Source of the DNA: Sulfurimonas sp. | GTDB taxonomy: Bacteria; Campylobacterota; Campylobacteria; Campylobacterales; Sulfurimonadaceae | Length of the DNA: 64,000 bases | Assembly (NCBI RefSeq): GCF_028694605.1 | Contig: NZ_JAQVKP010000001.1 | Span: forward strand, 124,001-188,000 | Direction: 5' to 3' | The notes under the pieces: model-generated | Seen by the model: the letters and a program-made list of their open reading frames with translations, nothing else | The model's database searches: none | What the model was told of the DNA's origin: nothing | Shown: positions 6,713 through 24,511 of the stretch, piece after piece | How positions within the stretch are numbered: position 1 is the stretch's first letter | How the letters are laid out: each line of letters starts with the position of its first letter | Translations under genes and position numbers: made by a program

Positions 6713-9124
6713 ATGAGACTCTTGATTGTCGGCGGCGGCATTGCTGCGGTTTATTTGGCAAATAGAGCAAAGAAAATCGATGCTTTGCTTGATGTTGTTA
6801 TGCTAAGTGATGAGGCGTACGCACCTTACGATAGAATCCATCTCTGCTCCCTAGTCGATGAGAGCGCAACACTTCAAAAGATATCACTGCATCTTGACCC
6901 AAGAGTGCATCTTGAGCTAAACCAAAAAATCATTAAAATCGATAAAGAAAAAAAAAGAGTTTTTTCAAAAGATGCGATGTTTCATTATGACAAGCTTGTT
7001 ATTGCAACAGGTTCACTGCCAAACACTCCGTTTGATATAAGCAAAATCAAAAATGCTGCCGTTTTTAGAAGCGCAGATGACGCAAAATCAATCAAAGAGG
7101 GCATAAAAGGAAGAGAAGTTGTTGTAGTTGGAGCAGGTCCCATTGCACTGGAGCTTTTGGAACGGCTGGGCAAAATGGAGAGTGTGCATAAAGTTACACT
7201 GCTTGTACGCTCAAATTTTTTATATGATAAAAATCTCTCACATGAATCCATAAAGCTCATAGAGAATAGCTACACAAAAGATAAGAAAATGACTATATCT
7301 TACGAAGATGAAATCATAGATATCGTAGTTGAAGATGGCGAGATAAAGAGGCTCAAGAGTAAAAAACTGGAGATTGAGAACCCTTTTGTGGTCTTTGGTA
7401 TAGGGATAAAGCCAAATATTGATAGTTTTAGAGATGTTTTAGAGTGTAACAGAGGCATTTTAACAAATCTTTTTATGCAGTGCGAAGATGATATCTACGC
7501 TATCGGAGAGTGTGCAGAGGTAAGAGAACTTGGTTTTGTTGCTGGGCATGTCGAGGCTTGCGTGGATGAGGCGGAGTGCACAGTGGCACATCTACTGCTT
7601 CAAGAACCAAAAGAGTTTGTACGCAAAACAACGGTTGATATGCTCAAAGTCGGTGAGTTTAATCTAGTGGATGTGATCTCTGCAAAATTTTCAAATCCCT
7701 ATGAGAAGGTCACGGTAAGTGCTGAGAACTGCGTCGATGAGTATTTTTTAAGAGAGAAAAAATTACTTCGTTATGTCGGTATCAACTCAAATACGGATAT
7801 AGCTTTCATGCAAACTATTATGCAAAATGAGAGTGAAGTTGCTATCGACGAGCTGTATAAAAACAGAGTTGCTAAAGATAGAGGCAAACTTGTTTGCAGT
7901 TGTACAAGTTCGTATCATAATGATTTGGTTGATATAGTTGTGAAAAACGGCGTTGGGTCGTTTGCGGATTTGGCACACTTCTCACAAGCCGGCAGGGTTT
8001 GCGGCAGATGCAGAGGCGAGGTTGTCAAAATCATAGAGGGGTCACAGCATCTTATAGACTTTGGCAAGGTCAAAAAAAGCGCTCAAGATGTAGAGATAGA
8101 AAAAAAAGTAGAGGAAGCAAAAAAGAGAGTTGAGAGATACAACAAGCTCCATCCAAAAAATCAGCTTGATGCAAGCAATCTTGAAGCGGCTATGCAAAGT
8201 TTTGATATAAAAAAAGATGAGGTAAACAGATGGATTAGTATGGTAAGCGCAAATATGCAGCTTCATCCAAAATTTGAAGAAGTTGTGCAAAGCGGAGTTA
8301 AGGTTTTAAATAAAGTACCTATCATCTGGCTTGAGTTGGCGGATTGCAGCGGCAATTCGGAGGCTTTTATCAAATCTGCCAATCCTTCTATCGAGGATTT
8401 GATATTTGACTATATTTCGCTTGATTATCATGAGCTTTTGATGAGCGCTAGCGGCGATGCGAGCGAGAGTGCGCTTGAAGATATTATCAAAAATCAAAAA
8501 GGTGAATATGTGCTTATTGTCGAGGGTGCCGTGCCTTTGGGATTGGATGGAAAATACCTTAGAATCGGCAGGCAAGGAGAGACGGGTATAGAACTCTTAA
8601 GGAGATGTGCCAAAGACGCCGCACTTGTCGTTGCGGTGGGAAGCTGTGCGTTTGATGGCGGAGTGGTCGCTGCCGCGCCAAACCCCACGGGAGCCGTGGG
8701 TGTGGCAGAAGCACTTGGACGGGATGATGTCATAAATATTTCTGGATGCCCCACAAACCCTATAAACATAGTCGGTACACTGCTTTACTTTATGATGTTT
8801 GAAGAGATGCCTCCGCTTGATGAGTTTAACAGACCTCTTTGGGCGTATGAGGGCAGAATTCATGATAATTGCGAAAGAAGAGGACATTTTGAAGCAGGTG
8901 AATTTGTCAAAGAGTGGGGCGATGAGGGGGCAAAAAAAGGGTGGTGCCTTTTTGAGATGGGGTGCAAAGGTGCTTACGCAAATGCTTCCTGCCCGAGTAT
9001 GAAGTTCAACAAAGGCACAAGCTGGCCTGTGCAAGCAGGGCATGGATGTATGGCATGTACAGAGAGAGGTTTTTTTGACAAATACGCAAATGAGAGAGTT
9101 TACCATGAAAAAAATAGTCATTGA
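6713..9124 (+). CDS. hupS: Fusion: NirB-like FAD/NAD(P) oxidoreductase + BFD-like [2Fe-2S] domain + NiFe hydrogenase small subunit
   Basis: One 803-residue frame holds three modules. Residues 1-380 form a pyridine-nucleotide-disulfide-type flavoprotein (GGGIAA 7-12 for FAD, GAGPIALE 140-147 for NAD(P), AIGECAE 263-269). Residues 393-440 form a BFD-like [2Fe-2S] site (Cys395, Cys397, Cys430, Cys433). After a helical linker, residues 535-800 are a NiFe hydrogenase small subunit with Cys645, Cys679, His717, Cys720, Cys745, Cys751, Cys760, Cys779 and Cys782. The usual first CxxC reads CSGN, so the second proximal cysteine is Asn548. There is no Tat signal or C-terminal anchor, so it is cytosolic, as in group 2 enzymes. 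It overlaps the large-subunit gene by 20 bp. The fusion suggests electron flow between H2 and NAD(P) or a ferredoxin. Confidence 0.88.
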   Translation: MRLLIVGGGIAAVYLANRAKKIDALLDVVMLSDEAYAPYDRIHLCSLVDESATLQKISLHLDPRVHLELNQKIIKIDKEKKRVFSKDAMFHYDKLVIATGSLPNTPFDISKIKNAAVFRSADDAKSIKEGIKGREVVVVGAGPIALELLERLGKMESVHKVTLLVRSNFLYDKNLSHESIKLIENSYTKDKKMTISYEDEIIDIVVEDGEIKRLKSKKLEIENPFVVFGIGIKPNIDSFRDVLECNRGILTNLFMQCEDDIYAIGECAEVRELGFVAGHVEACVDEAECTVAHLLLQEPKEFVRKTTVDMLKVGEFNLVDVISAKFSNPYEKVTVSAENCVDEYFLREKKLLRYVGINSNTDIAFMQTIMQNESEVAIDELYKNRVAKDRGKLVCSCTSSYHNDLVDIVVKNGVGSFADLAHFSQAGRVCGRCRGEVVKIIEGSQHLIDFGKVKKSAQDVEIEKKVEEAKKRVERYNKLHPKNQLDASNLEAAMQSFDIKKDEVNRWISMVSANMQLHPKFEEVVQSGVKVLNKVPIIWLELADCSGNSEAFIKSANPSIEDLIFDYISLDYHELLMSASGDASESALEDIIKNQKGEYVLIVEGAVPLGLDGKYLRIGRQGETGIELLRRCAKDAALVVAVGSCAFDGGVVAAAPNPTGAVGVAEALGRDDVINISGCPTNPINIVGTLLYFMMFEEMPPLDEFNRPLWAYEGRIHDNCERRGHFEAGEFVKEWGDEGAKKGWCLFEMGCKGAYANASCPSMKFNKGTSWPVQAGHGCMACTERGFFDKYANERVYHEKNSH

Positions 9125-10778
9125 CCCAGTCACGAGGATAGAGGGGCATCTAAGGGTTGAAGTTGAAGTGGACGAGGGTGGAGTTGTAAGAGAGGCGTAT
9201 GCGAGCGGAGGGCTTTTTCGCGGTATAGAGATTATTTTAAAAAACAGAGACCCTAGAGATGCAGGGCTTTTGGCGGGAAGGATTTGCGGAGTTTGTACTA
9301 ACTCACATTTTCGTGCAGCGGTGAGCAGTGTCGAGGACGCTTACGGTATAGAGCTGCCAAAAAATGCGCAGATCATAAGAGACCTTATCGCAATGGCGCT
9401 CTTTATCCAAGACCATGTTGTGCATTTTTACCATTTGCACTCTTTGGATTTTGTGGATGTGACAAGTGCGCTTCAAGCTGATGCCGCTCTTGCGCTGGAG
9501 GAGGCGAAAAAGTATGCAAAAAATCCATACGCCAGTTCACTTTCTCATTACGAAGCAGTTTTGCTAAAACTTCAAAATTTTGTTAAAGCAGGCAGACTTG
9601 GACCATTTGCTTACGGATACTGGGGGCATAGCGCCTACAAGCTTACCCCCGAACAAAACCTTATTATCATTTCGCACTATCTTGAAGCGCTTAAATTTCA
9701 AACAGAGCTAAGCAAGGCAGTAGCGATATTTGGTGGTAAAACACCGCATCCGCAAAGTATAGTCGTAGGAGGCGTGACAAGCGTGGCAGATATGCTCAAT
9801 CCACAAAGGCTTAACGACTACATCTTTAGCATCAAAGAGGCAAAAGAGTTTGTGGATAACGCCTATCTCTCAGATATGAAGCTTTTGGCAGCTGCATACA
9901 GGGACGAGATAAAAGCAGGCACTGGCAGAGGTGCGGGGAACTTTTTTTCTGTGGGGGGCTATGCCTTTGATGCAACACAGCAGCTCTTTAGCAGCGGAGT
10001 GGTCTATGGGCATGACTTTTCAAAAGTAGAGGAGTTTGACGAGAGCAAAATCACCGAAGAGGTGGATAGAGCGTGGTATAGTGCAGACGGTGAGGTGTGT
10101 TATACGGATTTAAACGACGACGGCACACTAAAAACAGCTAAAAGCGACGATAAATACTCATGGATAAAAGCTCCTAGATATAACGGTGAGGCGATGGAAT
10201 GCGGACCTTTGGCAAGAGTGTTTGTCAGTTATGCAAAGTCAAACGAGCTTATAAAACCTTTTGTAGATGAGTTTTTAAAAGATACGGATTTGGAGCTTAC
10301 GGATTTATCTAGCAGCGTCGGGAGAAATGCGGCAAGAGCCATAGAGAGTGCTTATATTTGTGAGTATGTTTTTAAGCTTGTATCCGATTTGCTTCAAAAT
10401 ATAAAGCACGATGACACACAAACTTGGGCAAAATACGAGTTTGAAAAACTGCCTCACTGTGCGAAAGGCAGAGCATTTTTTGAAGTCCCGCGCGGTGTTT
10501 TGTCACACTTTGTAAGCATAAAAGATCAAAAGATAGAGAACTACTCCGTCATAGCACCGACCACTTGGAATGCTTCGCCCAAAGATAGGTTCGGTAAAAG
10601 AGGGGCTTATGAACAAGCACTTATAGGCATAAAGATAAAAGACACCGCAAAGCCGCTTGAAGTGCTAAGAGTTATACACTCTTTTGACCCATGCCTTGCT
10701 TGTGCCGTGCATGTTATCGATGCAAAAGGCGTGGAGCTTGGCAACTATAAAATTAAAAGCGTGTCATGTATGGTTTGA
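9105..10778 (+). CDS. hupL: NiFe hydrogenase large subunit (cytosolic uptake type)
   Basis: The 557-residue protein starts at the ATG at 9105, where the product opens with MKKIVIDPVTRIEGHLRV and a GAGAGAG purine run precedes it; an upstream in-frame ATG at 9042 would add an unrelated 21 residues. Both metal motifs are present: RICGVCTNSH near the N-terminus and DPCLACAVH at the C-terminus, giving the four cysteines that hold the NiFe(CN)2CO site. After the final His a 21-residue tail remains, the part removed by the maturation endopeptidase encoded at 13696. It pairs with the fused small subunit upstream. The operon continues only after an inserted restriction-modification pair. Confidence 0.95.
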   Translation: MKKIVIDPVTRIEGHLRVEVEVDEGGVVREAYASGGLFRGIEIILKNRDPRDAGLLAGRICGVCTNSHFRAAVSSVEDAYGIELPKNAQIIRDLIAMALFIQDHVVHFYHLHSLDFVDVTSALQADAALALEEAKKYAKNPYASSLSHYEAVLLKLQNFVKAGRLGPFAYGYWGHSAYKLTPEQNLIIISHYLEALKFQTELSKAVAIFGGKTPHPQSIVVGGVTSVADMLNPQRLNDYIFSIKEAKEFVDNAYLSDMKLLAAAYRDEIKAGTGRGAGNFFSVGGYAFDATQQLFSSGVVYGHDFSKVEEFDESKITEEVDRAWYSADGEVCYTDLNDDGTLKTAKSDDKYSWIKAPRYNGEAMECGPLARVFVSYAKSNELIKPFVDEFLKDTDLELTDLSSSVGRNAARAIESAYICEYVFKLVSDLLQNIKHDDTQTWAKYEFEKLPHCAKGRAFFEVPRGVLSHFVSIKDQKIENYSVIAPTTWNASPKDRFGKRGAYEQALIGIKIKDTAKPLEVLRVIHSFDPCLACAVHVIDAKGVELGNYKIKSVSCMV

Positions 10779-10965: not shown

Positions 10966-12066
10966 GTGACGTATTATGAAAATATAAAAAAATTAACTAA
11001 AACAGTTCCTGTGGAGCTGGTTGATTTTGAACAACCAAGAGACCAAGCAAGAACTCCTACACAAGCGTCATCAAATTTTATTACAAATAAAGAGCAGGGT
11101 GATTGGGCTGAAAACCTTATTACAAGGGCAGTTAATGAAAATTCTAAAAATTTTGTAGCGGTTAAATATGGTAAATCTGATGATTTGGTAGCAGGAGAAG
11201 AGGGATTTGATACATTTTATCAAGAATTTCAAAATGAACTTGACACAATTGGCAAACGACCAGACTTGCTAATTTTTAAAAGGTCAGATTTTGATAATAA
11301 TTTAGGTTTTGATATCAGTCAAGTGCCACATTATCAAATAACTGATTATGTAAAAAAGGCAATTGCAGGTATTGAGGTGCGTTCAAGTGCATTTTTAATT
11401 GACAAATATGAAGAAGCAATGCGATTAAAAACTGAAAAGTTTATACAAATTGCACTAGAGACAAAACATAAAATTCTTTCTGATTTTTCGGATGTTTTAA
11501 ATCATCCTGCAAGACAAAACTATATTGAAATTTTGAATAGTATTAATGAAAATACTCTAAACATAACAAATTTTAGAACACCAAGTTGGAGTTCATCTAA
11601 AACACTTATTGAAGTAAAAGAACTTTTCAAGCAACTCAAAAGTGCTATTAAAGAGATTCAAAAAAGAGATTATCTATCAATAACTCCAAAAGTTGAAGAT
11701 ATAAAAGTTGTTTATAAGTGGATTGAGACTTTTAATGTCCCCCATTTTTATTTCCAAGTATTTTTTGATAAAGTTTATGGTATTTCATTTGAGCAAATTT
11801 TAAAAATTATATCAGATTCTGATAATGATGGTGTGATTTTTTCTGTTGAGGCAGATGCAAAAAATCAAAACAAGACAACGATAAAAATCAACTCAAAATC
11901 TGGTGTTCAGATTGCTTCAAAAGTCGATGAACCAGAACATGAAAGTGTTAGAAAAGAGATGGATAGAGGACGGTTACTGTTTTATGTAACATTTAAAGGA
12001 GGAACCGCATATCTTGATTTAGATAAATTACAAACAATTTTAGAGATAGACGAAGTTGAGTTTTAA
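10966..12066 (+). CDS. Probable type II restriction endonuclease, AccI-like
   Basis: This 366-residue protein starts at GTG behind a GGGAG ribosome site. It shows a likely PD-(D/E)XK-type core: RPDLLIF with Asp100, followed by GIEVRSS with Glu137 and Arg139 in place of the usual Lys. The length, the EVRSS motif and the partner methyltransferase resemble the AccI family of endonucleases (GTMKAC cutters), but this was judged by eye. The gene overlaps the methyltransferase start by one base, so the two are translationally coupled. The local DNA is markedly more A/T-rich than the hydrogenase genes on either side, pointing to recent acquisition. Confidence 0.62.
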
Positions 12067-13658
12067 TGATAGCAACGATAGAACATGTAATTAATAATTC
12101 AATAGAAAATGATTATTCTAAATCAATTTCTATTGAACATCGTAAAAAATTTGCACAATTTTTTACACCTTTTCCCATTGCCGATGCAATGTCTAAATGG
12201 ATTTTAGGCAATGACCAATTAAAGAGTGTTCTTGAGCCTGCTTTTGGACTTGGTATATTTTCAAGAGCTATTTTAAATCATAAAAAAGATGTTTATATTA
12301 AAGGTTTTGAAGTTGACGACACTATTTTTGATAATGCAAAGAAGCATTTTGAAAATACAGAAAATGTAAACATTCTTTTACAAGACTATATGTATAACGA
12401 TTGGAAAAACAAATATGATGGAATTATTTGTAACCCGCCTTATTTTAAATTTCACAATTATGACAATAAAAATATTTTAAAAGAAATTGAGACCAATCTA
12501 AAATGTAAATTGAACGGTTTTACAAATTTATATACTTTATTTTTACTAAAATCAATTCATCAATTAAGTAAAAATGGACGATGTGCCTATATAGTCCCTT
12601 CAGAATTTTTAAATTCGGATTATGGCAAATTAGTGAAAAAGCATTTAATAAAAAGTAAAACATTAAGACACGTTATTGTAATTGACTTTGAAGAAAATGT
12701 GTTTGACGATGCTTTAACAACAGCATCAATTATACTTTGTGCAAATGATAATTTAACACAAAGAGTCAAGTTTAGTAACATTCAATCTTTACAAGATTTA
12801 AGTAAAATAGACAATATAATTACTAATTATCCAAATCTTTCAGATGCAAAACAGGTATATGATTTTTCAGAATTAAATCCAGAAATTAAATGGAAAGCTT
12901 ATTATCAAAAGCAAAATAGTATTAAGTTTAAGAATCTTGTGCCATTTTCAACTTATGCAAGAGTGGTTCGTGGTATTGCAACAGGCTCAAACGAATTCTT
13001 TACATTCAGTTCATCAAAAGCAAAGGAGTACAATATCGATGAACAACACTTATTGCCTTGTATTTGCAGTGCAAAAGATGTTAAAAGAGCATTTTTTAAT
13101 TTACAAGATTTTGAAGAATTAAAGCAAAATGACAAATCTGTTTTTCTTCTTAATGCTCAAAATTCAACTGATAAAAATGTAAATTCTTATATACGAAAAG
13201 GGGAGGGTGAAGAAATAAACAAACGATTTCTTACGGCAAGTAGAAAACCTTGGTATTCACTTGAAAAAAGACCGCCATCACCCATTTGGGTTTCAGTGTT
13301 TAATAGAAATGGTTTGCGATTCATTAGGAATGAAGCAAATATTTCTAACTTAACTTCGTATCATTGTGTTTACCTAAAAGAATCTGGTTTGTTTTCTGAA
13401 ATAGATGTAGATTTGTTTTTTGCTTACTTGCTAACAGATACAGCAAAACTAATTTTCCAAGACCAAGCAAGAGAATATGGGAATGGATTACAAAAATTTG
13501 AACCAAATGATTTAAATAAAGCCATGATCTTGAATCTAAATTGTTTAGATAATGATTCAGTTAAAAAAATTTTAGATTTTTATAAACTTTATAAACAAGG
13601 GATAAATTGTATAGATGAAATTGATAAGATTTTAATCAAGAATTTTAAAATGGTATAA
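12066..13658 (+). CDS. Type II N6-adenine DNA methyltransferase (Eco57I/N6_Mtase class)
   Basis: The 530-residue protein has the gamma-type amino-methyltransferase motifs: FTPFPIADAM near residue 33, an AdoMet-binding EPAFGLGIF (57-65, motif I) and NPPY at 123-126 (motif IV, adenine N6 class). A long C-terminal half (about 290-530) would be the target-recognition region. It follows the endonuclease with a one-base overlap, as expected for a protecting methylase. The order nuclease-then-methylase without a visible controller gene is unusual but not unique. High A/T and Lys/Asn-rich codons differ from the neighbouring hydrogenase genes. Confidence 0.88.
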   Translation: MIATIEHVINNSIENDYSKSISIEHRKKFAQFFTPFPIADAMSKWILGNDQLKSVLEPAFGLGIFSRAILNHKKDVYIKGFEVDDTIFDNAKKHFENTENVNILLQDYMYNDWKNKYDGIICNPPYFKFHNYDNKNILKEIETNLKCKLNGFTNLYTLFLLKSIHQLSKNGRCAYIVPSEFLNSDYGKLVKKHLIKSKTLRHVIVIDFEENVFDDALTTASIILCANDNLTQRVKFSNIQSLQDLSKIDNIITNYPNLSDAKQVYDFSELNPEIKWKAYYQKQNSIKFKNLVPFSTYARVVRGIATGSNEFFTFSSSKAKEYNIDEQHLLPCICSAKDVKRAFFNLQDFEELKQNDKSVFLLNAQNSTDKNVNSYIRKGEGEEINKRFLTASRKPWYSLEKRPPSPIWVSVFNRNGLRFIRNEANISNLTSYHCVYLKESGLFSEIDVDLFFAYLLTDTAKLIFQDQAREYGNGLQKFEPNDLNKAMILNLNCLDNDSVKKILDFYKLYKQGINCIDEIDKILIKNFKMV

Positions 13659-13667: not shown

Positions 13668-13695
13668 TTGTGTCCATAGATTGGAGAGTAACATC

Positions 13696-14217
13696 ATGAA
13701 AAAAATCATAGTTATCGGGGTTGGAAATCTGCTTTTTTGTGATGATGGGGTTGGGGTAATTGCGGCACAATATCTTAGAGAAAATTTTATCTTTGAGCCG
13801 GAGATTGCTGTCGTTGACGGTGGTACTCTTGGATTTGGGCTTTTTGAGTATTTTAGCACCTATGATACTGTTTTTGTAGTAGATACCATATCTATAGACG
13901 ATGAAGCAGGAGAGATATATAAAATACCATCCCATGAACTGCTCACTCTTGGAGGTTATAAAAAAAGTGCTCATGAAGTAGAAGTTTTGCAGATGTTAGA
14001 GATATGCGAGTTGTATGATAAAAAAGCGGATGTAACTATTATAGCGGTAGTTCCAGAGGATATAGCTACTCCAAAGATAGGATTGAGCCAAACTATAAAA
14101 GATGTTTTTGATAGCTTGATAAATATCGTTATATCAGAACTGGAAGCACTCGGCATAAAAGCTATAAAAAAAGATAATTTTGATTTAAGTGATATAATAG
14201 AGTTAAAAAAAGGTTAG
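13696..14217 (+). CDS. hyaD: NiFe hydrogenase maturation endopeptidase (HyaD/HupD/HybD family)
   Basis: The 173-residue product begins at the ATG at 13696 (MKKIIVIGVGNLLFCDDGVG), with GGAGAG 8-14 bp ahead; the TTG at 13681 lies at that ribosome site and is unlikely to be the start. The GVGNLLFCDDGVG opening includes the acidic residue used to bind the large-subunit nickel, and Asp/His residues near 60-90 complete the family pattern. The enzyme cleaves the C-terminal tail of the large subunit after the His of DPCxxCxxH. Its natural place is directly after hupL, from which it is now separated by the R-M pair. Confidence 0.9.
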   Translation: MKKIIVIGVGNLLFCDDGVGVIAAQYLRENFIFEPEIAVVDGGTLGFGLFEYFSTYDTVFVVDTISIDDEAGEIYKIPSHELLTLGGYKKSAHEVEVLQMLEICELYDKKADVTIIAVVPEDIATPKIGLSQTIKDVFDSLINIVISELEALGIKAIKKDNFDLSDIIELKKG

Positions 14218-14387: not shown

Positions 14388-15086
14388 GTGTGTAAAGATT
14401 GCGGCTGCGGCATAAACGACAACCATGAGATAAATGATAAAAAAACAATAGAAGTCATTACAAAAATATTGGATAAAAACGATACTCAAGCCATGCACAA
14501 TAGAGAGCATTTCGACGAACATAAAGTTTTGGCTATAAATATAATGAGTTCTCCCGGAAGCGGTAAAACATCTCTCTTAGAGAAGTTTGGGGAGTTGGCT
14601 AAGTTTAAATTCTGCGTTATAGAGGGCGATTTAGAAACAACAAGAGACTCTGATAGGCTAAGAGCAAAAAATATCCCTTCCATTCAGATACAAACACTCT
14701 CAACTTGCCATCTTGACGCATTTATGATACATAAAGCACTTCATGACATACCGCTAGAGGGTATGGATGTCTGCTTTGTAGAAAATGTGGGCAATCTTGT
14801 CTGCCCAGCTTCTTATGATGTCGGAACGCATCTAAATATCGTCCTTGTAAGTGTTGCTGAGGGTGATGATAAGATAGCCAAATATCCGGTCATGTTCCGC
14901 AAGGCTGATTTGATACTTATCACAAAAACCGATCTTTTACCTTACATAGAGTTTGATATAGAGGCGGAGAAAAAGGAAGCGAGAAAACTCCGCCCCAATG
15001 TGGACATCTTGGAAGTAAGCATCAAGGATGACAGCTCCATAAAAAAGGTGTTGAATTGGATAGAGTTTAAAAGAGAGATGCGCTGA
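14388..15086 (+). CDS. hypB: Hydrogenase nickel-incorporation GTPase HypB
   Basis: The 232-residue protein starts at GTG with an N-terminal MCKDCGCG metal site (Cys2, Cys5, Cys7). The GTPase core has a P-loop SSPGSGKTS near residue 53, IEGDLETTRD, the metal-binding CHLDA of the G domain, ENVGNLVCP and the TKTD guanine-specificity motif. HypB works with HypA to insert nickel into the large-subunit precursor. It abuts the small membrane gene upstream and overlaps the hypC start by one base. No extended poly-His nickel-storage stretch is present. Confidence 0.95.
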   Translation: MCKDCGCGINDNHEINDKKTIEVITKILDKNDTQAMHNREHFDEHKVLAINIMSSPGSGKTSLLEKFGELAKFKFCVIEGDLETTRDSDRLRAKNIPSIQIQTLSTCHLDAFMIHKALHDIPLEGMDVCFVENVGNLVCPASYDVGTHLNIVLVSVAEGDDKIAKYPVMFRKADLILITKTDLLPYIEFDIEAEKKEARKLRPNVDILEVSIKDDSSIKKVLNWIEFKREMR

Positions 15087-15328
15087 TGTGTCTCTCAATT
15101 CCAAGCCGCGTAACAAAGATAGATAAAGAGAGCAACACCGCAACACTCGATACTATGGGGGTTAGCCGTGAGGCTTCTCTGGAACTTATGCAAGATGGGA
15201 GCGTGGAAGTGGGTGACTATGTTCTTGTGCATATAGGTTTTATTATGAACAAAATCGACAAAGCCGATGCCCTGCTTTGCTTAGAGGCGTTTGAGGAGAT
15301 AGCAAAGCGGATGGAAGACGATGAGTAG
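15086..15328 (+). CDS. hypC: Hydrogenase maturation chaperone HypC
   Basis: This 80-residue protein opens with MCLSIPSRV, the conserved HypC/HybG start whose Cys2 carries the Fe(CN)2CO unit with HypD and binds the large-subunit precursor. The body has the usual GDYVLVHIGFIMNKID segment. It overlaps hypB by one base and hypD by 8 bases, in the standard hypBCD order. Confidence 0.95.
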   Translation: MCLSIPSRVTKIDKESNTATLDTMGVSREASLELMQDGSVEVGDYVLVHIGFIMNKIDKADALLCLEAFEEIAKRMEDDE

Positions 15329-16466
15329 AGAGCTTGAACTTAAAGAGCTTTATCTCGGCTTTAGAGATCCGAAAACTATCAAAGCCTATGCAAAACTTAT
15401 AGAAAAAGAGGCGCAAAAACTTGACTGTGATATAAACATCATGGAGGTTTGCGGAGGACATACGCATACTATTATGAAGTACGGACTCATCCAACTCCTG
15501 CCTAAAAATGTGAAGTTTATCCATGGTCCGGGGTGTCCTGTTTGCATTATGCCAAAGGAGAGGATAGACCACGCTTACATTTTGGCAGGGCAAAAAGATA
15601 TGATAGTTGTAACACTTGGCGATATGATAAAAGTGCCGGGGAGTTTTGGCAGCCTGCAAGATGCAAGAAGCAAAGGTGCGGATGTAAGATTTGTCTATTC
15701 GCCCGCAGATACGCTAAAGATTGCAGAGCAAAACCCCGACAAAACCGTTCTGTTTTTTGCCATAGGTTTTGAGACAACTACTCCTATGACAGCGGCACTT
15801 ATAAATCAAGTCATACAAAAAGATATAAAAAATATCCTCTTTCACATAAACCACGTAACGGTTCCTGAGCCGATGAGGGTTTTGCTTGATGATGAGACAA
15901 ACAAGATAGACGCTTTCATAGGTCCGGCTCACGTGAGCGTGATAAGCGGAAGCAGGATTTACGGCGAGTTTGTGCGTGACTATAAAAAACCCGTGGTTGT
16001 AAGCGGTTTTGAACCTGTAGATGTTATAAAGTCTGTCTATATGCTCGTCAAGCAGTTTAGCCAAAAGAGGTGTGAAGTTAAGGTAGAGTACAGCAGAAGC
16101 GTCACGCATGATGGCAACATTGAGGCGCAAAAACTAAATGAGAAGTTCTTTGAGAAGCGGGAGCATTTTAGATGGCGTGGCATCGGCGACATTGCCCAGA
16201 GCGCACTAAAGTTAAAAGATGAGTTTGTGTACCTTGATGCGGAAATTATTTATAAAGATATATTGCCAAGTCGTAAGATAGACGACCATAAACTCTGTAT
16301 TTGCGGAGATATTTTAAAAGGCAAAGCAAATCCTAAAGATTGCAAAGTATTTGGCAAAGCATGCACGCCATCAAGCCCGCTTGGAAGCTGTATGGTAAGC
16401 AGCGAGGGAGCCTGTGCGGCGTACTATAAATATGGGGAAATTTTAATATGCAATACAAATATATAG
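15321..16466 (+). CDS. hypD: Hydrogenase Fe-cofactor assembly protein HypD
   Basis: The 381-residue protein has the HypD signature motifs: EVCGGHTHTI near residue 41, GPGCPVCIMP near 70, GFETTTP near 150, and a C-terminal cysteine-rich region (ICGDILKG, then four further Cys) that holds a [4Fe-4S] cluster. With HypC it forms the scaffold where Fe(CN)2CO is built before transfer to the large subunit. In related genomes hypE usually comes next; here an aldo/keto reductase starts inside the last 19 bases and hypE is 6.7 kb away. Confidence 0.95.
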   Translation: MSRELELKELYLGFRDPKTIKAYAKLIEKEAQKLDCDINIMEVCGGHTHTIMKYGLIQLLPKNVKFIHGPGCPVCIMPKERIDHAYILAGQKDMIVVTLGDMIKVPGSFGSLQDARSKGADVRFVYSPADTLKIAEQNPDKTVLFFAIGFETTTPMTAALINQVIQKDIKNILFHINHVTVPEPMRVLLDDETNKIDAFIGPAHVSVISGSRIYGEFVRDYKKPVVVSGFEPVDVIKSVYMLVKQFSQKRCEVKVEYSRSVTHDGNIEAQKLNEKFFEKREHFRWRGIGDIAQSALKLKDEFVYLDAEIIYKDILPSRKIDDHKLCICGDILKGKANPKDCKVFGKACTPSSPLGSCMVSSEGACAAYYKYGEILICNTNI

Positions 16467-17965: not shown

Positions 17966-18706
17966 ATGCAAAGCACACAAATAGAAAAAAAGCTCAAAGA
18001 GTTTAAAAAAATTCTCAAACATTTCACAAAAAAATCTCTGCAAAGCCCCGATGACGTCCACGTACTGCGTGTCAAATCCAGAGAACTTTTTTCTTTGCTA
18101 AGTAAAGAGGATGCATTTGCCAAGATAGTAAAAAAAGCCATCTCACTGAGCAATGAAATCAGAGATATCGATGTCTTTTTTAGCGACTACCTCGCATCTT
18201 TGCCCAAAAGATATAGAAAAAAACTCCAAGAGGAGATAGCAGAAAAAGTAAAAGAGGATGCAAGAGAAAAAGAGATAAAAAAACTCCGTAAATATCTCAA
18301 AAATCTACAAATCCCAAAGAGCCTAGAGCAAAAAACCAAAGAAGAAACCCCACAAACTCCACTACAAATAAAATTCCCACCGCTAGAGAAAAAGAAACTG
18401 CACAAATACAGAATCACCATCAAAAAGAGGCTCTACATAGAGAAAAACAGCTCTGTAAAAGATGAGAAAAAGATAAAAATCTTAACAGAGATGAAAGATG
18501 CCTTAGGTGCCATAAATGACAACTACAACGGCTTAGAGAGAGTTCATAGCTATGGTGTAAAAGAGAAGCTGTATAAAAAAATAGAGAGATATACGCAGGA
18601 AGAGAATGCAAGAGTGTATGAGAAGATAAAGGATAGTTACGGTGTAATCATTTCATTAGATGAGTATAATGCTACCCATAACCAAAAGGAGCTTACAAAG
18701 TTATGA
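17966..18706 (+). CDS. CHAD-domain protein
   Basis: This 246-residue, very Lys-rich helical protein carries the CHAD signature HVLRVKSRELFSLLS near residues 28-42, a second half with HKYRITIKKRLY, and a tail with NDNYNGLERVHSYG. CHAD proteins bind polyphosphate through conserved basic and histidine residues. The four-base ATGA overlap couples it to the Fic gene that follows. The last third resembles the remnant at 19672-19809, showing that a related CHAD gene once existed downstream. Confidence 0.85.
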   Translation: MQSTQIEKKLKEFKKILKHFTKKSLQSPDDVHVLRVKSRELFSLLSKEDAFAKIVKKAISLSNEIRDIDVFFSDYLASLPKRYRKKLQEEIAEKVKEDAREKEIKKLRKYLKNLQIPKSLEQKTKEETPQTPLQIKFPPLEKKKLHKYRITIKKRLYIEKNSSVKDEKKIKILTEMKDALGAINDNYNGLERVHSYGVKEKLYKKIERYTQEENARVYEKIKDSYGVIISLDEYNATHNQKELTKL

Positions 18707-19671
18707 GTTATGAACCGCCGTTTACGATCACATCCAAGATTTTAAATCTTGTGAGCCAAATAAGTGAAGCTTTAGCCAAAATTGAGATGCAAGAACACAA
18801 TGTCATCACACCATATTTAAGAAAAATCAATCGCATTAAAACTTTAGCTGGTACTTTAGAAATAGAGGGAAATTTTTTAGGTGAAGAAAAAATCACGGCT
18901 ATTCTTGAGGGAAAAAGAGTTTTAGGAACTGTATTGGAACTTGCAGAGGTAAATGGAGCTATAAAAGCATATGAGAAGTTTGAAGAGTACAGCTCTGACT
19001 CTTTAACAGACTTGCTTCAAGCACATAAAATCTTAATGGGCGATATTTTAACGACTGCCGGAACTTTTCGAAGAGTAAATGTAGGAGTTGGTGGACAAAA
19101 CGGAGTGACACATGTTGCACCACCCTATGATAGAGTTCCTGACTTGATGCACGATTTGTTTGAATGGCTTAAAAAATCAGATGTGCATCCACTTATCAAA
19201 AGCAGTGTATTTCATTATGAATTTGAGTTTATCCACCCTTTTAGCGATGGAAACGGTCGCATAGGGAGGCTTTGGCAGAGTGTCATTTTGTACAACTACA
19301 AAAAAGTTTTCTCTTCAATTGCTACTGAAAGTATAGTAAGAGATTACCAAGATAACTATTATAAAGCTTTAGAAGATTCCGGTGCATTGGGTGAAAGTAC
19401 ATCGTTTATAGAATATATGCTAGAAATGATTTTAGAAGCAATAAAAAAGGTCGGTAATGAAGTCGGTAATAAGGTCGGTAATGCTTTAACTGACAATCAG
19501 ATGCAAATTGTGCAAAACATAAAAGAAAACCCAAAAATATCAGCTAAAAAACTATCAAATATTGTAGGTATATCGGTTAGAAAAATAGAAGAAAATATTT
19601 CTAAACTCAAAGAGATGAAGATAATTGATAGAGTTGGTGGAACTCGCGGATATTGGGAAGTGTTGGAATAA
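18703..19671 (+). CDS. Class II Fic-domain protein with winged-helix C-terminus
   Basis: The 322-residue protein has the Fic catalytic loop HPFSDGNGRIGR at 178-189 and, at 51-56, TLEIEG, which fits the (S/T)xxxE(G/N) inhibitory helix found N-terminal to the core in class II Fic proteins. Such enzymes AMPylate target proteins; the inhibitory Glu suppresses ATP use. The C-terminal 65 residues look like a winged-helix DNA-binding domain, joined by a linker built of three VGN repeats. It overlaps the CHAD gene by 4 bp. It sits with MazF-like and McrBC genes, so a toxin or defence role is plausible. Confidence 0.87.
   Translation: MSYEPPFTITSKILNLVSQISEALAKIEMQEHNVITPYLRKINRIKTLAGTLEIEGNFLGEEKITAILEGKRVLGTVLELAEVNGAIKAYEKFEEYSSDSLTDLLQAHKILMGDILTTAGTFRRVNVGVGGQNGVTHVAPPYDRVPDLMHDLFEWLKKSDVHPLIKSSVFHYEFEFIHPFSDGNGRIGRLWQSVILYNYKKVFSSIATESIVRDYQDNYYKALEDSGALGESTSFIEYMLEMILEAIKKVGNEVGNKVGNALTDNQMQIVQNIKENPKISAKKLSNIVGISVRKIEENISKLKEMKIIDRVGGTRGYWEVLE
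19447..19482 (+). repeat. Three in-frame 12-bp tandem repeats inside the Fic gene
   Basis: Three copies of (A/G)A(A/G)GTCGGTAAT stand head to tail and encode the linker KVGNEVGNKVGN. The unit length keeps the frame, so copy changes would alter only linker length. Confidence 0.8.
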
Positions 19672-19809
19672 TGATGGTAGAAATAACTACAATGCCATCG
19701 AGAGGCTAAAAAATTACGGTGTAAAAGAGCCTCTGTACAATAAAATAGCCAAATATACACAAAAACGAAATCAAAAACTTTATGAGAAGTTACGGTATAT
19801 GGTAAAATA
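19672..19809 (+). pseudogene. 3' remnant of a second CHAD-domain gene
   Basis: Read in the frame containing the stop codon at 19807-19809, this stretch encodes NNYNAIERLKNYGVKEPLYNKIAKYTQ and what follows, which aligns with the last part of the CHAD protein at 17966-18706 (NDNYNGLERVHSYGVKEKLYKKIERYTQ). No CHAD signature or proper start survives. The DNA is diverged from the intact gene, so this is the tail of a paralogue or of an older gene cut by the Fic insertion, not a fresh copy. It could still be read from an ATG at 19625 inside the Fic frame, which is unlikely to matter. Confidence 0.65.
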
Positions 19810-19836
19810 ATAGAAATAAGAGGCAAATTGTAAAAT
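19796..19836 (+). repeat. 41-bp direct repeat, copy 1 (upstream of MazF-like gene)
   Basis: It begins TATATGGTAAAATAATA and matches 20417-20457 at about 36 of 41 positions. It covers the end of the CHAD remnant and the region just before the MazF-like start. The TAAAAT inside could act as a -10 element. Confidence 0.6.
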
Positions 19837-20230
19837 GAAAAAATTTGATGAGTGGAACGAAGCCAAAAAACAGATACAAAATGAAACCATAAAAGTAGGA
19901 TATAAAAATAGAGATATTTTTTATATAAAAATGGGGCACAATATAGGCTATGAGCAAGATGGTAAAGGTGATAACTTTGTAAGACCGGTAGTAGTTTTAA
20001 AAGGATTTAACAAAGAAGTTTTTTTGGGGATTCCACTCTCTTCAAAAGATAAAGAAGGAAAATTTTACTATCGATTTGAATTTGAAAAAGATAATAGCAT
20101 AGTAAAAAATATAGCTATATTGTCTCAAATTAGACTATTTAGCACAAAGAGGCTTTTAAATAAGATTGGAATGATAAGTGAAAGTGATTTTGAAAAACTA
20201 AAAGATAAGCTGAGAGAACCTATTGATTAA
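19835..20230 (+). CDS. MazF/PemK-like toxin-family protein
   Basis: The 131-residue protein fits the PemK/MazF fold family: an early DIFYIKMGHNIGYEQDGKG loop, FVRPVVVLKGF, FLGIPLSS, and the C-terminal QIRLFSTKRL pattern with Gln, Arg and Asp/Ser at the typical places. MazF toxins are ribosome-independent or -dependent RNA endonucleases. An N-terminal helical extension of about 25 residues precedes the core. No antitoxin frame is seen immediately upstream, where a CHAD remnant lies, so it is either solitary or neutralised in trans. The gene is bracketed by 41-bp direct repeats. Confidence 0.72.
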   Translation: MKKFDEWNEAKKQIQNETIKVGYKNRDIFYIKMGHNIGYEQDGKGDNFVRPVVVLKGFNKEVFLGIPLSSKDKEGKFYYRFEFEKDNSIVKNIAILSQIRLFSTKRLLNKIGMISESDFEKLKDKLREPID

Positions 20231-20255
20231 CCCCGTCGAAAGACGGGTCGTCCCG
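20231..20255 (+). repeat. G/C-rich nested hairpin after the MazF-like gene
   Basis: CCCGTC-GAAA-GACGGG (20232-20247) makes a perfect 6-bp stem with a GNRA loop, and CGGG-TCGT-CCCG (20244-20255) makes an alternative stem using the same bases. It starts at the base after the stop codon. No T-run follows, so it is not a classic terminator. Confidence 0.55.
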
Positions 20256-20416
20256 AAGGAATTTAGAAGATAATTGTAGCAAAAAAATAATAAATATATA
20301 ATAAATTAAATCTTAACAAAAGATATGCAATAGAATATCGTCAAAAGTATCTATGTAGTGCTGATTTATAAGTATTTGTTTCAGAGTGAGTAAGGCGGTG
20401 GAGTTAAAAATGGTGC

Positions 20417-20457
20417 TATATGGTAAAATAATAAAAATAAGAGAGAAGTTATAAAAT
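20417..20457 (+). repeat. 41-bp direct repeat, copy 2 (upstream of mcrC)
   Basis: Near-identical to 19796-19836, 621 bp away. It lies shortly before the mcrC start and also contains a TAAAAT that could be a -10 element. Confidence 0.6.
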
Positions 20458-20491
20458 ATTTTTAAATGGCAAAAGTGGTAAAAAAACTGAA

Positions 20492-21628
20492 ATGAAAAAT
20501 ATAATCTATGAATACAATGAAGTAAAAGATGAGAAGCTAAAAAAGTACATCATTGACACTCCTTTGCTTCATAAATATTTTAAACTTGACTGGAAGATTT
20601 TAAAATCACAGCAATACTGCGGAATACTAAATTTTGAAGATAAAGATTACTATCTGCTTCCTAAGATAGCCGATAATGATGATGAAAAAAACCTTGATAT
20701 TTTTATCTATATGCTCATGTACGCTTATGATATAAAACTTGAGAATGAAGATATAGCGTCATGTAAAAATGAAAAGCATAATATCTTAGAAGTTTTTATA
20801 CAGCTTTTTGCAAAAGGGCTGTTTAAAGAGTTCGGGCGAGGTGTTTACAAAGAGTATATAACCGAGCAGGATAATTTGACGACGCTTAGAGGTAAGTACC
20901 TTATAAACGAAAATCTAAAGTACAACTTTACAAACGCAAAGATATACTGCGAATATGACGAGTTTAGTATGAATAACACGCTAAATCAGTTTTTTTTGTA
21001 CGCCGTCAAAACTCTTATGCCCTTTACCAGAGATAAAAAACTTCTAAAACAGTGCGAGTTGGTGCTTGATGAGGTGGAGTACAGACACTTAGATATAAAT
21101 AGCTTTATGATTCATTTTAACCGCTTAAATCTAAGATACAGAGATAGTTTTGAGTTTGCGATACTTCTTCTTAGTAAATCTATCCCGCTCTTTTCAAAAG
21201 ACAAGAAAAGCTTTGCGTTCTTGTTTGATATGAATATGCTCTTTGAGCGGTTTGTCGGTAGGATGATAAAAGAGATAGAGCCTGAAACAAAGCTACAAAG
21301 CTATGATGTTTATGGAGATTTGATTTTAAAACCTGATATTATTGTGGGCGATTTGATAATAGATACGAAATACAAAAAGCTACATGTAAAAGAGGATATA
21401 AAAAGAGACGACAAGTTTCAAATGTATGTTTACGGCAAAAACTACGGTATAAAAAATATGATGCTTCTGTATCCAAAACATCTGGAGCATTTTGATTATG
21501 ATTTTGTTTTGGGGACAAACGGAGATGAAATTTTGATGAAGATAAAGAGCTTGGATTTGGGGTTTGATGGGTGTAGTTATGGGGAGTATATTGAGAAAAT
21601 TAGAGAGAGACTGGAGAAAATAATATGA
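20492..21628 (+). CDS. mcrC: McrC-like nuclease subunit of a McrBC restriction system
   Basis: The 378-residue protein has an N-terminal McrC-type domain and a C-terminal PD-(D/E)XK nuclease core: FLFDMNMLFERFVGRMI near 243-259, Pro281-Asp282, and DTK at 291-293. McrC is the cleavage subunit that docks on the McrB ring and cuts DNA carrying modified cytosine. The gene precedes mcrB and overlaps it by 4 bp, opposite to the E. coli order. The ribosome site is weak. A short A/T-rich leader with a possible promoter lies upstream. Confidence 0.85.
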   Translation: MKNIIYEYNEVKDEKLKKYIIDTPLLHKYFKLDWKILKSQQYCGILNFEDKDYYLLPKIADNDDEKNLDIFIYMLMYAYDIKLENEDIASCKNEKHNILEVFIQLFAKGLFKEFGRGVYKEYITEQDNLTTLRGKYLINENLKYNFTNAKIYCEYDEFSMNNTLNQFFLYAVKTLMPFTRDKKLLKQCELVLDEVEYRHLDINSFMIHFNRLNLRYRDSFEFAILLLSKSIPLFSKDKKSFAFLFDMNMLFERFVGRMIKEIEPETKLQSYDVYGDLILKPDIIVGDLIIDTKYKKLHVKEDIKRDDKFQMYVYGKNYGIKNMMLLYPKHLEHFDYDFVLGTNGDEILMKIKSLDLGFDGCSYGEYIEKIRERLEKII

Positions 21629-23181
21629 ACGAAAACTTAAGTATAGCGGTTTTAACACATAATCCAAATGGAGACTGGGGTGATGTAAGACCATTGATTG
21701 AACAGCAAGGTTATTATGAAAAGTGGGGCAAAAGTATAAATCTTGTAGTTGGGCAAACAGTTTTGATTTATATATCGAGTAATATCCGTCAAATTCAATA
21801 TATTATGGAAGTTACAAATGTTTATGATGATAGTATAGATGTAAAATTAATTAAAAAGCTTAGTAGAGAACAATCTCAGTTATTATCTTTTGAAAATTTG
21901 AAAAAACATGGTTTGAAAAAAGGAACGATAAATTATATTTTAGATAATAATAGACAACTATATGAATATGTAAAATCTGTTATAAATGACGACACAATTA
22001 AAGAAAAAAAAGATAAAAAATTGAATATAAAAAACATAATCCTCTACGGTGCTCCGGGAGTCGGTAAAACCCATAACTACCAAAATCTTATCTCTATGAT
22101 AGAAGAGGGCAAAAGCCAAAATGAGATATTTTACACCGTTTCAAAAAACCTACATGTAGATTTACAAAACGAAACTTTTGAGAGCATAAAAAATGAGAAA
22201 AGAGTTGAGTTTGTAACATTTCATCAAAGCTACTCTTATGAGGATTTTATAGAGGGTTTTAGACCTAGCGACAATGGAAATATAGAGTTAGAAGATGGGA
22301 TATTTAAAAATATAGCTAAAGAAGCAAATAGCAATATTGTTGATAGTTTTTCTAACAATATAAATATAAACTTCAAAAGTGTGCTGGAGCAGTTTCAATT
22401 AAAATTTGAAATCGGCAGTAAATTAAAAACTTATAGTAATAATAGCGAGTTTACCATCTCAAAATATACCGATAAATCCATTCATATTATGGTAAATGAA
22501 AATAAATTTTCTGTTTCATATTTGCCTCTTGAAGAAATATATAACAGCAATAAGATAAAACCTATCAATAATCCTCAAGATGTTATAGATGCCTTGTCTG
22601 GTAGGTTTAAAGGTTTGGCAACATATTATTATTCTATTTTTAGAGAAATGCTTTTATTTAAAGAAGTTAAGCAAAATAGCACTGCTTTAAAAAACTTCTA
22701 CATAGTCATAGACGAAATCAACAGAGGAAATATCTCTAAAATCTTTGGAGAGTTGATAACGCTTATAGAAGAAGATAAAAGGGATGTTTACGAAGTTACG
22801 CTTCCGTACTCAAAAGAGAAGTTCAAAGTGCCTTCAAATCTCTACATCATCGCCACCATGAACTCTACCGACAAATCAATCGCAACTATAGACATAGCAC
22901 TAAGACGAAGATTTACATTTTTGAAGATGAAGCCAAATGAAGATTTGGTACATGTAAAGGCAAAAGAGCTGTTTAATGACTTAAATAAGTTTATAAAAGA
23001 GAATCTAAACGAAGACTATATGTTAGGTCATAGCTATTTTATGAAGATAGAGAGTGATGAAGATCTGGAGTTTGTAAAAGAGTACAAGATAAGACCGCTT
23101 TTGGAGGAGTATTTTTATGCTGATGAAAAAAAATATAACGATGCTATTAATATTTTGAACAAAAAGAGCCAAGATGACTAA
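21625..23181 (+). CDS. mcrB: McrB-like AAA+ ATPase with an N-terminal EVE/PUA-like domain
   Basis: In this 518-residue protein residues 1-115 look like an EVE/PUA-type reader (GDWGDVRPLIEQQGYYEKWG, then VGQTVLIYISS), a fold known to bind modified bases. Residues 135-500 are an McrB-type motor: Walker A GAPGVGKTH (142-150), Walker B VIDEINRGN (361-369), the MNSTDKS signature (412-418) and RRRF (427-430). McrB binds modified DNA, hydrolyses GTP and drives McrC. It ends 8 bp inside hypE, so translation of the two may be linked. Confidence 0.87.
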   Translation: MNENLSIAVLTHNPNGDWGDVRPLIEQQGYYEKWGKSINLVVGQTVLIYISSNIRQIQYIMEVTNVYDDSIDVKLIKKLSREQSQLLSFENLKKHGLKKGTINYILDNNRQLYEYVKSVINDDTIKEKKDKKLNIKNIILYGAPGVGKTHNYQNLISMIEEGKSQNEIFYTVSKNLHVDLQNETFESIKNEKRVEFVTFHQSYSYEDFIEGFRPSDNGNIELEDGIFKNIAKEANSNIVDSFSNNININFKSVLEQFQLKFEIGSKLKTYSNNSEFTISKYTDKSIHIMVNENKFSVSYLPLEEIYNSNKIKPINNPQDVIDALSGRFKGLATYYYSIFREMLLFKEVKQNSTALKNFYIVIDEINRGNISKIFGELITLIEEDKRDVYEVTLPYSKEKFKVPSNLYIIATMNSTDKSIATIDIALRRRFTFLKMKPNEDLVHVKAKELFNDLNKFIKENLNEDYMLGHSYFMKIESDEDLEFVKEYKIRPLLEEYFYADEKKYNDAINILNKKSQDD

Positions 23182-24166
23182 AACAATAAGCTTAGCCCAC
23201 GGCAACGGCGGAGTTGAGAACAACGAGCTGATATCCAAGGTCTTTTACAGAGCTTTTAAAAACGATATACTCCAAAAGAGTGAAGATGCAGCTGTTATAG
23301 AAAGCGGAACATTGGCATTTTCAACAGATAGTTTTACGGTTACTCCGCTCTTTTTTGCAGGAGGAGATATCGGTAAACTTGCAGTATGCGGAACTTGTAA
23401 CGATTTGGCTATGATGGGTGCAAAGCCAAAGTATCTAACTTGCAGTGTTATCATAGAAGAAGGCTTTAGTATAGATGAGCTTGAGAGAATAGTTTCATCT
23501 ATGCAAAAAGAGCTTGATATTAACGGAGCCGTAATCGTTAGCGGCGATACAAAAGTAGTACCTCGTGGCAGTGTCGATAAGATATTTATCAATACCGCAG
23601 GAATCGGAGAGATTTTAAAAAAAGGTATCAGCTCAAACAAGATAAATGAGGATGATATCATACTTCTTAGCCGTGATATAGGGTGTCACGGAGCTACTAT
23701 ATTTGCTTCCCGTGAGGGGATTGAGCTAACAAGTACGCTTAAGAGTGATTGTAGCTCTCTTTATCCCATTGTTAAGAGGTTATTGGATGAAGATATAGAT
23801 ATAACGGCTATGAGAGATGCAACTCGCGGCGGACTTAGTGCTGTTTTAAACGAGTGGGCAAAACAGTCTGATATCTGTATAGAGGTAGATGAGAGTAAGA
23901 TATCTATAAGCGATGAGGTAATGGGGCTTTGCGAGATTTTGGGTTTTGACGCCATGAGCCTTGCAAATGAGGGTACTTTTTTACTTGCCGTTAAAAAAGA
24001 TGAGGCGCATAGGGCAGTTGAAATTCTCAAATCCTACAACAAAAATGCCTCTATAATCGCAAATGTATCAACTAAATATCTCAAAAAAGTTATCATAAAT
24101 TCGTCGTGGGGTACGCAGAGATTTTTAGATATGCCAAGCGGCGAACTGCTTCCAAGGATTTGCTAA
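23174..24166 (+). CDS. hypE: Hydrogenase cyanide-ligand enzyme HypE
   Basis: The 330-residue PurM-like protein opens with TISLAHGNGGVENNELI and ends in PRIC, the C-terminal Cys that accepts the carbamoyl group from HypF and is dehydrated to thiocyanate. ATP-binding motifs (FSTDSFTVTP, GGDIGKLAVCGTCNDLAMMGA) are present. The start overlaps the mcrB end by 8 bp and hypA begins at the next base after the stop. It resumes the hyp operon after the accessory block. Confidence 0.95.
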   Translation: MTKTISLAHGNGGVENNELISKVFYRAFKNDILQKSEDAAVIESGTLAFSTDSFTVTPLFFAGGDIGKLAVCGTCNDLAMMGAKPKYLTCSVIIEEGFSIDELERIVSSMQKELDINGAVIVSGDTKVVPRGSVDKIFINTAGIGEILKKGISSNKINEDDIILLSRDIGCHGATIFASREGIELTSTLKSDCSSLYPIVKRLLDEDIDITAMRDATRGGLSAVLNEWAKQSDICIEVDESKISISDEVMGLCEILGFDAMSLANEGTFLLAVKKDEAHRAVEILKSYNKNASIIANVSTKYLKKVIINSSWGTQRFLDMPSGELLPRIC

Positions 24167-24511
24167 ATGCATGAGTACGGCATTGTTCAATCTTTGATAG
24201 ATAGTTGTGATGAACATGCCAAGAAAAACAGTGCAAAAAAAGTAATAAAGGTCGTAATAAAAATCGGTGTACTTAGTGGAGTGGAGCCGCATCTTCTAAG
24301 TGAAGCGTTCGAGATGTTCAAGTTTGGCACGATATGTCATGAGGCTGATTTGGTTATAAATATTCAAAAAGTAAAAGTGCATTGCAATAGTTGCGGCGCT
24401 GAGAAAGAACTTAAAAAAAATGAGTTTATCTGTCCAAAATGCGGCAGTTTTGACTTAAAAGTTCTTGATGGCGAAGATATGTATCTTATGAGTTTAGAGC
24501 TTAAGCAGTGA
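24167..24511 (+). CDS. hypA: Hydrogenase nickel chaperone HypA
   Basis: The 114-residue protein begins MHEYGIVQSL, with the N-terminal Met-His-Glu nickel site, and carries a zinc site from Cys73, Cys76, Cys89 and Cys92. It delivers nickel with HypB to the hydrogenase large subunit. It follows hypE without a gap and overlaps hypF by 4 bp. Confidence 0.95.
   Translation: MHEYGIVQSLIDSCDEHAKKNSAKKVIKVVIKIGVLSGVEPHLLSEAFEMFKFGTICHEADLVINIQKVKVHCNSCGAEKELKKNEFICPKCGSFDLKVLDGEDMYLMSLELKQ

Follow-up and report, generated by a model that had tools for sequence, protein, structure and literature searches.

A [NiFe] hydrogenase small subunit fused to a NirB-like flavin module in Sulfurimonas sp.: a candidate soluble H2:NAD(P)+ oxidoreductase built on a group 1 enzyme

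A 64,000-nucleotide stretch of a Sulfurimonas sp. genome (assembly GCF_028694605.1, contig NZ_JAQVKP010000001.1, positions 124,001 to 188,000; hereafter the window) carries two neighboring genes at positions 6713-10778, which we hold, with moderate confidence, to encode a soluble cytoplasmic H2:NAD(P)+ oxidoreductase built on a group 1, not a group 3, [NiFe] hydrogenase. The first gene (6713-9124, + strand) is a single intact frame of 803 amino acids (aa), from ATG to stop, in which a flavin module, a BFD-like [2Fe-2S] domain, a linker, and a [NiFe] hydrogenase small subunit follow one another, and the second (9105-10778, + strand) encodes the large subunit. The large subunit would cleave H2 at its [NiFe] site and, in the simplest order, electrons would pass through the three clusters of the small subunit to the [2Fe-2S] cluster, flavin adenine dinucleotide (FAD), and NAD(P); the flavin module thus probably hands H2 electrons to NADP or NAD. 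Such an enzyme would be the NirB electron module with a hydrogenase substituted for the sirohaem part, and it would likely serve to provide CO2 fixation with reductant while bypassing reverse electron transport. We favor this reading because of the domain order and fold, the invariant ligands, the flavin and BFD parts co-linear with those of NirB, the nucleotide-site residues, the absence of a twin-arginine translocation (Tat) motif, the adjacent large subunit with no adjoining cytochrome b detected, the Ech-type genes near many relatives, the low ratio of non-synonymous to synonymous substitution rates (dN/dS), and an ATP-citrate-lyase domain encoded in the same genome.

The Pfam search that the sequence-only reading of this stretch had proposed for the 803-residue protein returned flavin, BFD, and small-subunit domains, all four matches exceeding the curated cut-offs: Pyr_redox_2 at residues 2-271 (2e-37), Fer2_BFD at 393-442 (4.3e-8), Oxidored_q6 at 545-692 (3.7e-28), and NiFe_hyd_SSU_C at 712-791 (9.9e-29). 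The first is the core of an FAD/NAD(P) oxidoreductase of the NirB/putidaredoxin-reductase type (6716-7525, + strand), and the second is the BFD-like domain (7889-8038, + strand). The NCBIfam hydA small-subunit model scored 367 bits against a cut-off of 179.5; the NirB model covered residues 1-442 only (146 bits, cut-off 578), and no sirohaem domain was reported by Pfam. Residues 534-791 (8312-9085, + strand) matched solved group 1 small subunits, e.g. those of C. necator and of E. coli Hyd-1 and Hyd-2, and by presumed analogy with these enzymes we named the cluster sites proximal (three Cys and Asn548), distal (His and three Cys), and medial (three Cys). Together with the structure model and fold searches, these results confirmed that the frame holds a complete group 1 small subunit behind NirB-like flavin and BFD parts, as the earlier reading had assigned them, with corrections of detail: its [2Fe-2S] site stands but reads C395-x-C397...C430-x-x-C433, the hydrogenase part begins at about residue 534, and in the small subunit, which it rightly called full, the proximal CxxC reads C545-x-x-N548.

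In the fold searches, residues 1-387 resembled FAD-dependent ferredoxin reductases (best Z 35.7, root-mean-square deviation 2.5, 379 aligned residues, 21% identity). Among the matches listed in both searches, flavoprotein reductases and their relatives were found, all on the N-terminal part, and the hydrogenase part was placed by sequence. A structure model built from a 117-row alignment (mean predicted local distance difference test, pLDDT, 85.3) was used instead of an earlier 20-sequence model, whose pLDDT was 70.8 overall and poor in the small-subunit part. The individual parts are predicted to fold, and their mutual placement is unsure because the predicted template modeling score (pTM) was only 0.57.

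Relatives were sought in 298 Campylobacterota genomes and, with the N-terminal part as the sole query, by a contig scan of named genomes. Some match was obtained in 281 of the 298 genomes, mostly to ordinary small subunits; in 20, including the genome of the window, the match extended over essentially the whole fused protein at 50-100% identity. The contig scan gave 132 pattern matches, of which 114 were confirmed and 80 of these analyzed, and the frame continued into the small subunit in all 80. At least 100 fusion loci (20 + 80) are thus known, with 95 complete fused frames and five cut by a contig end; as eight pairs hold identical proteins, 92 distinct proteins are represented. An artefact was therefore rejected, the chance of an assembly or sequencing error that joins two genes being practically negligible, and both the single-frame fusion of the sequence-only reading and the Campylobacterota survey that it had called for are answered by these counts. 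Record titles assign most of the carriers to Sulfurimonas, Sulfuricurvum, and Sulfurovum; Hydrogenimonas, Arcobacteraceae, and two Gammaproteobacteria also occur. The titles Flavobacteriaceae and Helicobacter pylori PMSS1 on two contigs with the fusion (L061 and L100) probably reflect mis-binning or mislabeling. Of the 445 plasmid and 18 phage records that gave a match, none matched over 80% of the fusion.

The fused architecture is not new, and the protein of the window is a further case of a described, uncharacterized type. Hansen and Perner (2016), citing Scott et al. (2006), described in Hydrogenovibrio crunogenus XCL-2 a small subunit that carries a pyridine nucleotide-disulfide oxidoreductase domain, and such fused small subunits in Sulfurimonas autotrophica, Sulfuricurvum kujiense, Sulfurovum sp. 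AR, Arcobacter nitrofigilis, and Thioalkalimicrobium microaerophilum (PMC4744846). The statement of the sequence-only reading that known hydrogenases use separate diaphorase subunits is accordingly not supported, and whether the architecture was on record for other Campylobacterota, which that reading could not tell, is answered by Sulfurimonas, Sulfuricurvum, Sulfurovum, and Arcobacter (PMC4744846). Cluster I of XCL-2 and of SP-41 resembles the fusion of the window in that its small subunit is long (813 aa in XCL-2) and contains an oxidoreductase domain, and in having neither a Tat signal nor cytochrome b (PMC4744846, PMC6501319); compared by published description, nothing basic differs, and the BFD [2Fe-2S] domain is not mentioned in those passages. 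A Thiomicrorhabdus relative, nested in the fusion clade, is also 813 aa long. Gonnella et al. (2019) reported that the fusion-type hydrogenase of SP-41 is expressed and may also act as a soluble hydrogenase (PMC6501319). What the present analysis contributes beyond this is the BFD domain, the residues at the nucleotide site, the single large-subunit clade, and the Ech neighborhood; no published mention of the BFD domain or of the Ech neighborhood for these hydrogenases was found, and one may still exist in print. Our literature search likewise found no published activity tied to a fused small-subunit hydrogenase.

When the fusions were thinned to < 90% identity, the cofactor sites of the sequence-only reading were borne out. 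G7, G9, C45, G140, and G142 were invariant in all 75 rows, as were all four cysteines of the BFD domain and the ligands of the proximal, medial, and distal clusters; the cofactors are presumably bound. Residue 45 (6845-6847) is the Cys of a YDRIHLC motif; Ser stands at this position in E. coli NirB. At the proximal CxxC, every one of the 92 distinct fusion proteins has Asn for the second Cys. This replacement is shared by fusions, Tat-bearing Campylobacterota small subunits, and 2d-like small subunits (a label given by motif and setting, not by HydDB), and conventional small subunits (alignment A3, n = 42) had Asn in 31 rows, Cys in nine, and Glu and Asp in one each. Asn is common in these conventional rows, and in cyanobacterial HupS it is a reported proximal ligand (PMC6616624). 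Its presence alone is therefore no argument against cluster binding, and the idea of an iron-sulfur site peculiar to the fusions was rejected on the same grounds. In the Tat-bearing Campylobacterota class (L021-L030, L112-L143, and others) the site with Asn for the second proximal Cys reads WLELQDCAGNSE and variants, and at one locus (L142) Glu occupies the position (DCAGETE).

The nucleotide site was compared where the second strand of the NAD(P) domain ends: the residue there is Glu, Glu, and Asp, respectively, in the E. coli NADH enzymes NirB, Lpd, and NorW, and the NADPH enzyme Gor has Val-Arg. The fused protein carries Val165-Arg166, as in Gor. Residue 166 is Arg in 73 of 75 fusion rows, and residue 165 is V, S, L, I, A, or N in each of the 74 rows in which it was read. 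Because these residues resemble those of Gor, not those of NirB, Lpd, and NorW, an NADP(H) or dual specificity is suggested, from sequence inference only. BphA4 mutants with T176R, which were reportedly made for the study of NADPH preference, were among the fold matches of the N-terminal part, and we take T176 to be equivalent to residue 166 of the fusion.

The large subunit (PF00374, 1.8e-194) carries GRICGVCTNSH and DPCLACAVH motifs, and homology makes 9105, 20 bases inside the fused frame, its likely start; the longest frame begins at 9042. We built a large-subunit tree of 84 rows (fusion 40 of 80, Asn class 23 of 45, canonical 8 of 8, 2d-like 6 of 11, others 2 of 2, and five references) and a small-subunit tree of 58 rows (26 fusion, 16 Asn class, six canonical, four 2d-like, two others, and four references); both were quick searches on thinned sets without bootstraps, and long branches meeting were flagged in both. 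The fusion-partner large subunits formed one clade inside group 1 (40 rows; Shimodaira-Hasegawa-like approximate likelihood ratio test, SH-aLRT, 100) and grouped with HoxG, HyaB, and HybC (SH-aLRT 99, subject to the same flagged branches), apart from HoxC (2b), the 2d-like rows, and HoxH (3d), the sole group 3 row. This quick tree thus places the large subunit in group 1 rather than group 3. Fusions joined the canonical class in the large-subunit tree (SH-aLRT 86), whereas they joined the Tat-bearing Asn class in the small-subunit tree. Two Gammaproteobacteria, Thiomicrorhabdus and a Piscirickettsiaceae metagenome-assembled genome, are nested inside the fusion-partner clade, and this nesting is consistent with transfer out of Campylobacterota; the XCL-2 sequence itself is not among the rows. 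Two same-genus genomes (L148:443-1993 and L153:1501-3051) encode another [NiFe] enzyme, with QRVCGVCPYAH and, in the small subunit, CSGCS, which lies outside all classes in the tree. That the pair might be a regulatory H2 sensor seems highly improbable, since the large subunit sits with group 1 and apart from HoxC, no kinase adjoins the pair in the window, and hydrogenase sensors need no flavin module. What speaks for a sensor is that group 2 hydrogenases in the cytoplasm of these bacteria have been proposed to act in sensing (PMC4584964).

Fusion-type large subunits have been assigned to group 1b by motifs, the L1 motif being quoted as QRxCGVCTxxH (PMC4744846). The L1 motif of the window departs from it, with Gly for Gln, and Gln is present in 38 of 87 fusion large subunits; the L2 motif fits the group 1b DPCxACxVH. 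The Tat signal and adjoining cytochrome b of a periplasmic respiratory group 1b enzyme were not found with the fusions. In particular, none of 100 fusions has a Tat-like motif in the first 60 residues. Downstream sequence of 6 kb or more was available for 46 loci; the large subunit lies next to the fusion in 44 of these, and cytochrome b (two queries) was matched in four, in none of them adjoining the fusion pair. In the window, cytochrome b is not among the next genes, which are those for restriction-modification and then maturation. A Sulfurimonas paralvinellae plasmid (L173, NZ_CP041407.1) carries a Tat-class-like hydrogenase with cytochrome b that adjoins a 2d-like pair.

An Ech-type group 4 [NiFe] hydrogenase, called where at least two of four core subunits lay on the same strand within the stretch examined (up to 8 kb), was found near the fusion in 20 of the 80 named loci, downstream in nine and upstream in 11 (L036, L038, L040, L042-L045, L074, L077, L080-L083, L086, L088, L095, L102, L107, L108, and L110). 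All six subunits were present in 11 loci. Where 6 kb or more was covered on each side of the fusion (34 loci), 11 loci had Ech-type genes; when all loci were thinned to < 90% identity, 18 of 70 had them. A nickel-free complex beside the fusion was rejected, as both CxxC motifs are kept in the four complete EchE-like sequences inspected. In Desulfurobacterium, genes for Ech and an NAD(P)-linked hydrogenase are reported 51 nt apart (PMC12724263). The Ech-type genes near the fusion in the 20 loci suggest, although they do not prove, that NAD(P)H and ferredoxin are supplied together. An enzyme in which H2 reduces ferredoxin with or instead of NAD(P)+, by flavin-based bifurcation or as a ferredoxin-linked enzyme, would suit organisms of the reductive tricarboxylic acid (TCA) cycle, which require reduced ferredoxin, and the FAD domain has a ferredoxin-reductase fold; however, Pfam found no additional ferredoxin-type cluster domain in the fused frame, the nearest folds are simple one-flavin reductases, and the neighboring Ech could itself provide ferredoxin, so that we consider this alternative very unlikely. 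The genome of the window, rated 100% complete in 25 contigs, has one PF00374 match and one small-subunit match; no [NiFe] hydrogenase besides the fusion was found in it, in a search that covered [NiFe] but not [FeFe] enzymes. One ATP-citrate-lyase citrate-binding domain was also found there, which supports a reductive TCA cycle setting, in keeping with the CO2 fixation in an autotroph that the sequence-only reading had named as possible.

Several observations weigh against an H2:NAD(P)+ oxidoreductase. An Ech partner was not found in the genome of the window, where the one relative of EchE is NuoD-like and 29% identical, and 60 of the 80 named loci show no Ech in the stretch examined, many of these stretches being short; the model, moreover, leaves the domain arrangement uncertain. 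Hansen and Perner saw group 1 cluster-binding motifs unconserved and doubted cluster binding, and XCL-2, which consumes no H2, gave fractions inactive under the conditions tested (PMC4744846). Hydrogenase activity of SP-41 was in membranes and not in the soluble fraction (PMC6501319), and extracts of S. autotrophica took up no H2 (PMC4584964). In the passages of these three accounts that report inactivity, no statement was found that NAD(P)+ was the acceptor. The membrane activity of SP-41 and the ideas raised in PMC4744846 and PMC6501319 speak for an uptake hydrogenase tied to the membrane by a cytochrome b on loan from a different cluster, or for a decayed enzyme without cluster binding. Taken together we regard these two as improbable: against them stand a dN/dS of 0.048-0.073 in five pairs of fusion relatives, the ligands kept in every row, the Asn ligand of HupS, and the lack of a Tat motif; moreover, the genome of the window has no other [NiFe] large subunit as a lender, cytochrome b alone not having been searched there. 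NAD(P)-linked hydrogenases are generally reversible, and the enzyme might instead run in reverse, as an NAD(P)H-driven, H2-evolving redox valve. The absence of H2 uptake in carriers of the fusion type would agree with this (PMC4744846, PMC4584964). The cluster I large-subunit gene of SP-41, however, showed its highest expression when H2 was the only donor (PMC6501319), and nearby Ech in relatives suits supply as well as disposal; a valve is therefore unlikely in our view, and we infer uptake as the direction of the proposed H2:NAD(P)+ oxidoreductase.

The proposed enzyme can be set beside four known systems. NirB shares the order of an FAD/NAD domain followed by a BFD [2Fe-2S] domain, and E. 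coli NirB aligns through both, whereas the fusion has a small subunit instead of the sirohaem part and Val for the nucleotide-site Glu. The Campylobacterota group 1b membrane-bound hydrogenase has the large subunit nearest to the fusion partners in the tree, but the fusion lacks a Tat motif and carries an extra flavin module, and cytochrome b was not found beside it. Group 3b/3d enzymes such as C. necator HoxFUYH couple H2 with NAD(P)+, the reaction proposed for the fusion; HoxH lies on another branch, and the flavin module of the fusion is of a different type and in one chain, not in separate subunits. Group 2d enzymes of the Aquifex Hase III type are cytoplasmic and proposed to feed the reductive TCA cycle (PMC10052474, PMC5401914, PMC6702916), but 2d-like small subunits of about 310-320 aa have no flavin module and are far away in the tree.

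Further along the + strand of the window lie maturation genes, namely a HycI-family hydrogenase maturation protease (13681-14217; PF01750, 8.2e-23), HypB (14388-15086; TIGR00073), HypC (15086-15328; TIGR00074), HypD (15321-16466; TIGR00075), HypE (23174-24166; TIGR02124), and HypF (24508-26739; TIGR00143), all five Hyp models over cut-off, with a 114-aa HypA-like frame, named by eye, between hypE and hypF (24167-24511). An AccI-type restriction endonuclease (PF09545, 6e-216) and a type II methyltransferase occupy 10966-13658, between the large subunit and the protease. The hyp genes are split because defense-type genes, encoding a Fic protein, a PemK-like toxin, and McrC- and McrB-like frames (18703-23181), sit between hypD and hypE.

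A wider scenario, which we put forward tentatively and at less than even weight, is that a group 1 hydrogenase and a NirB-like flavin/[2Fe-2S] module were joined once, in Campylobacterota, to give a cytoplasmic H2:NADP+ oxidoreductase, a second, two-gene answer to the task of group 3. With Ech in many relatives, H2 would then feed the reductive TCA cycle with both NADPH and ferredoxin, and the enzyme would have passed to Gammaproteobacteria. If H2 does reduce NAD(P)+ here, the puzzle of XCL-2, a well-conserved hydrogenase with no H2 consumed in tests, becomes testable, as the acceptor may be NAD(P)+, and a two-subunit enzyme for H2-driven cofactor recycling would be at hand. Many sulfur- and hydrogen-oxidizing autotrophs would then obtain NAD(P)H in the cytoplasm from a compact enzyme of two genes that is currently filed as respiratory group 1b, and predictions of H2 use and of the avoidance of reverse electron transport in these bacteria would change.

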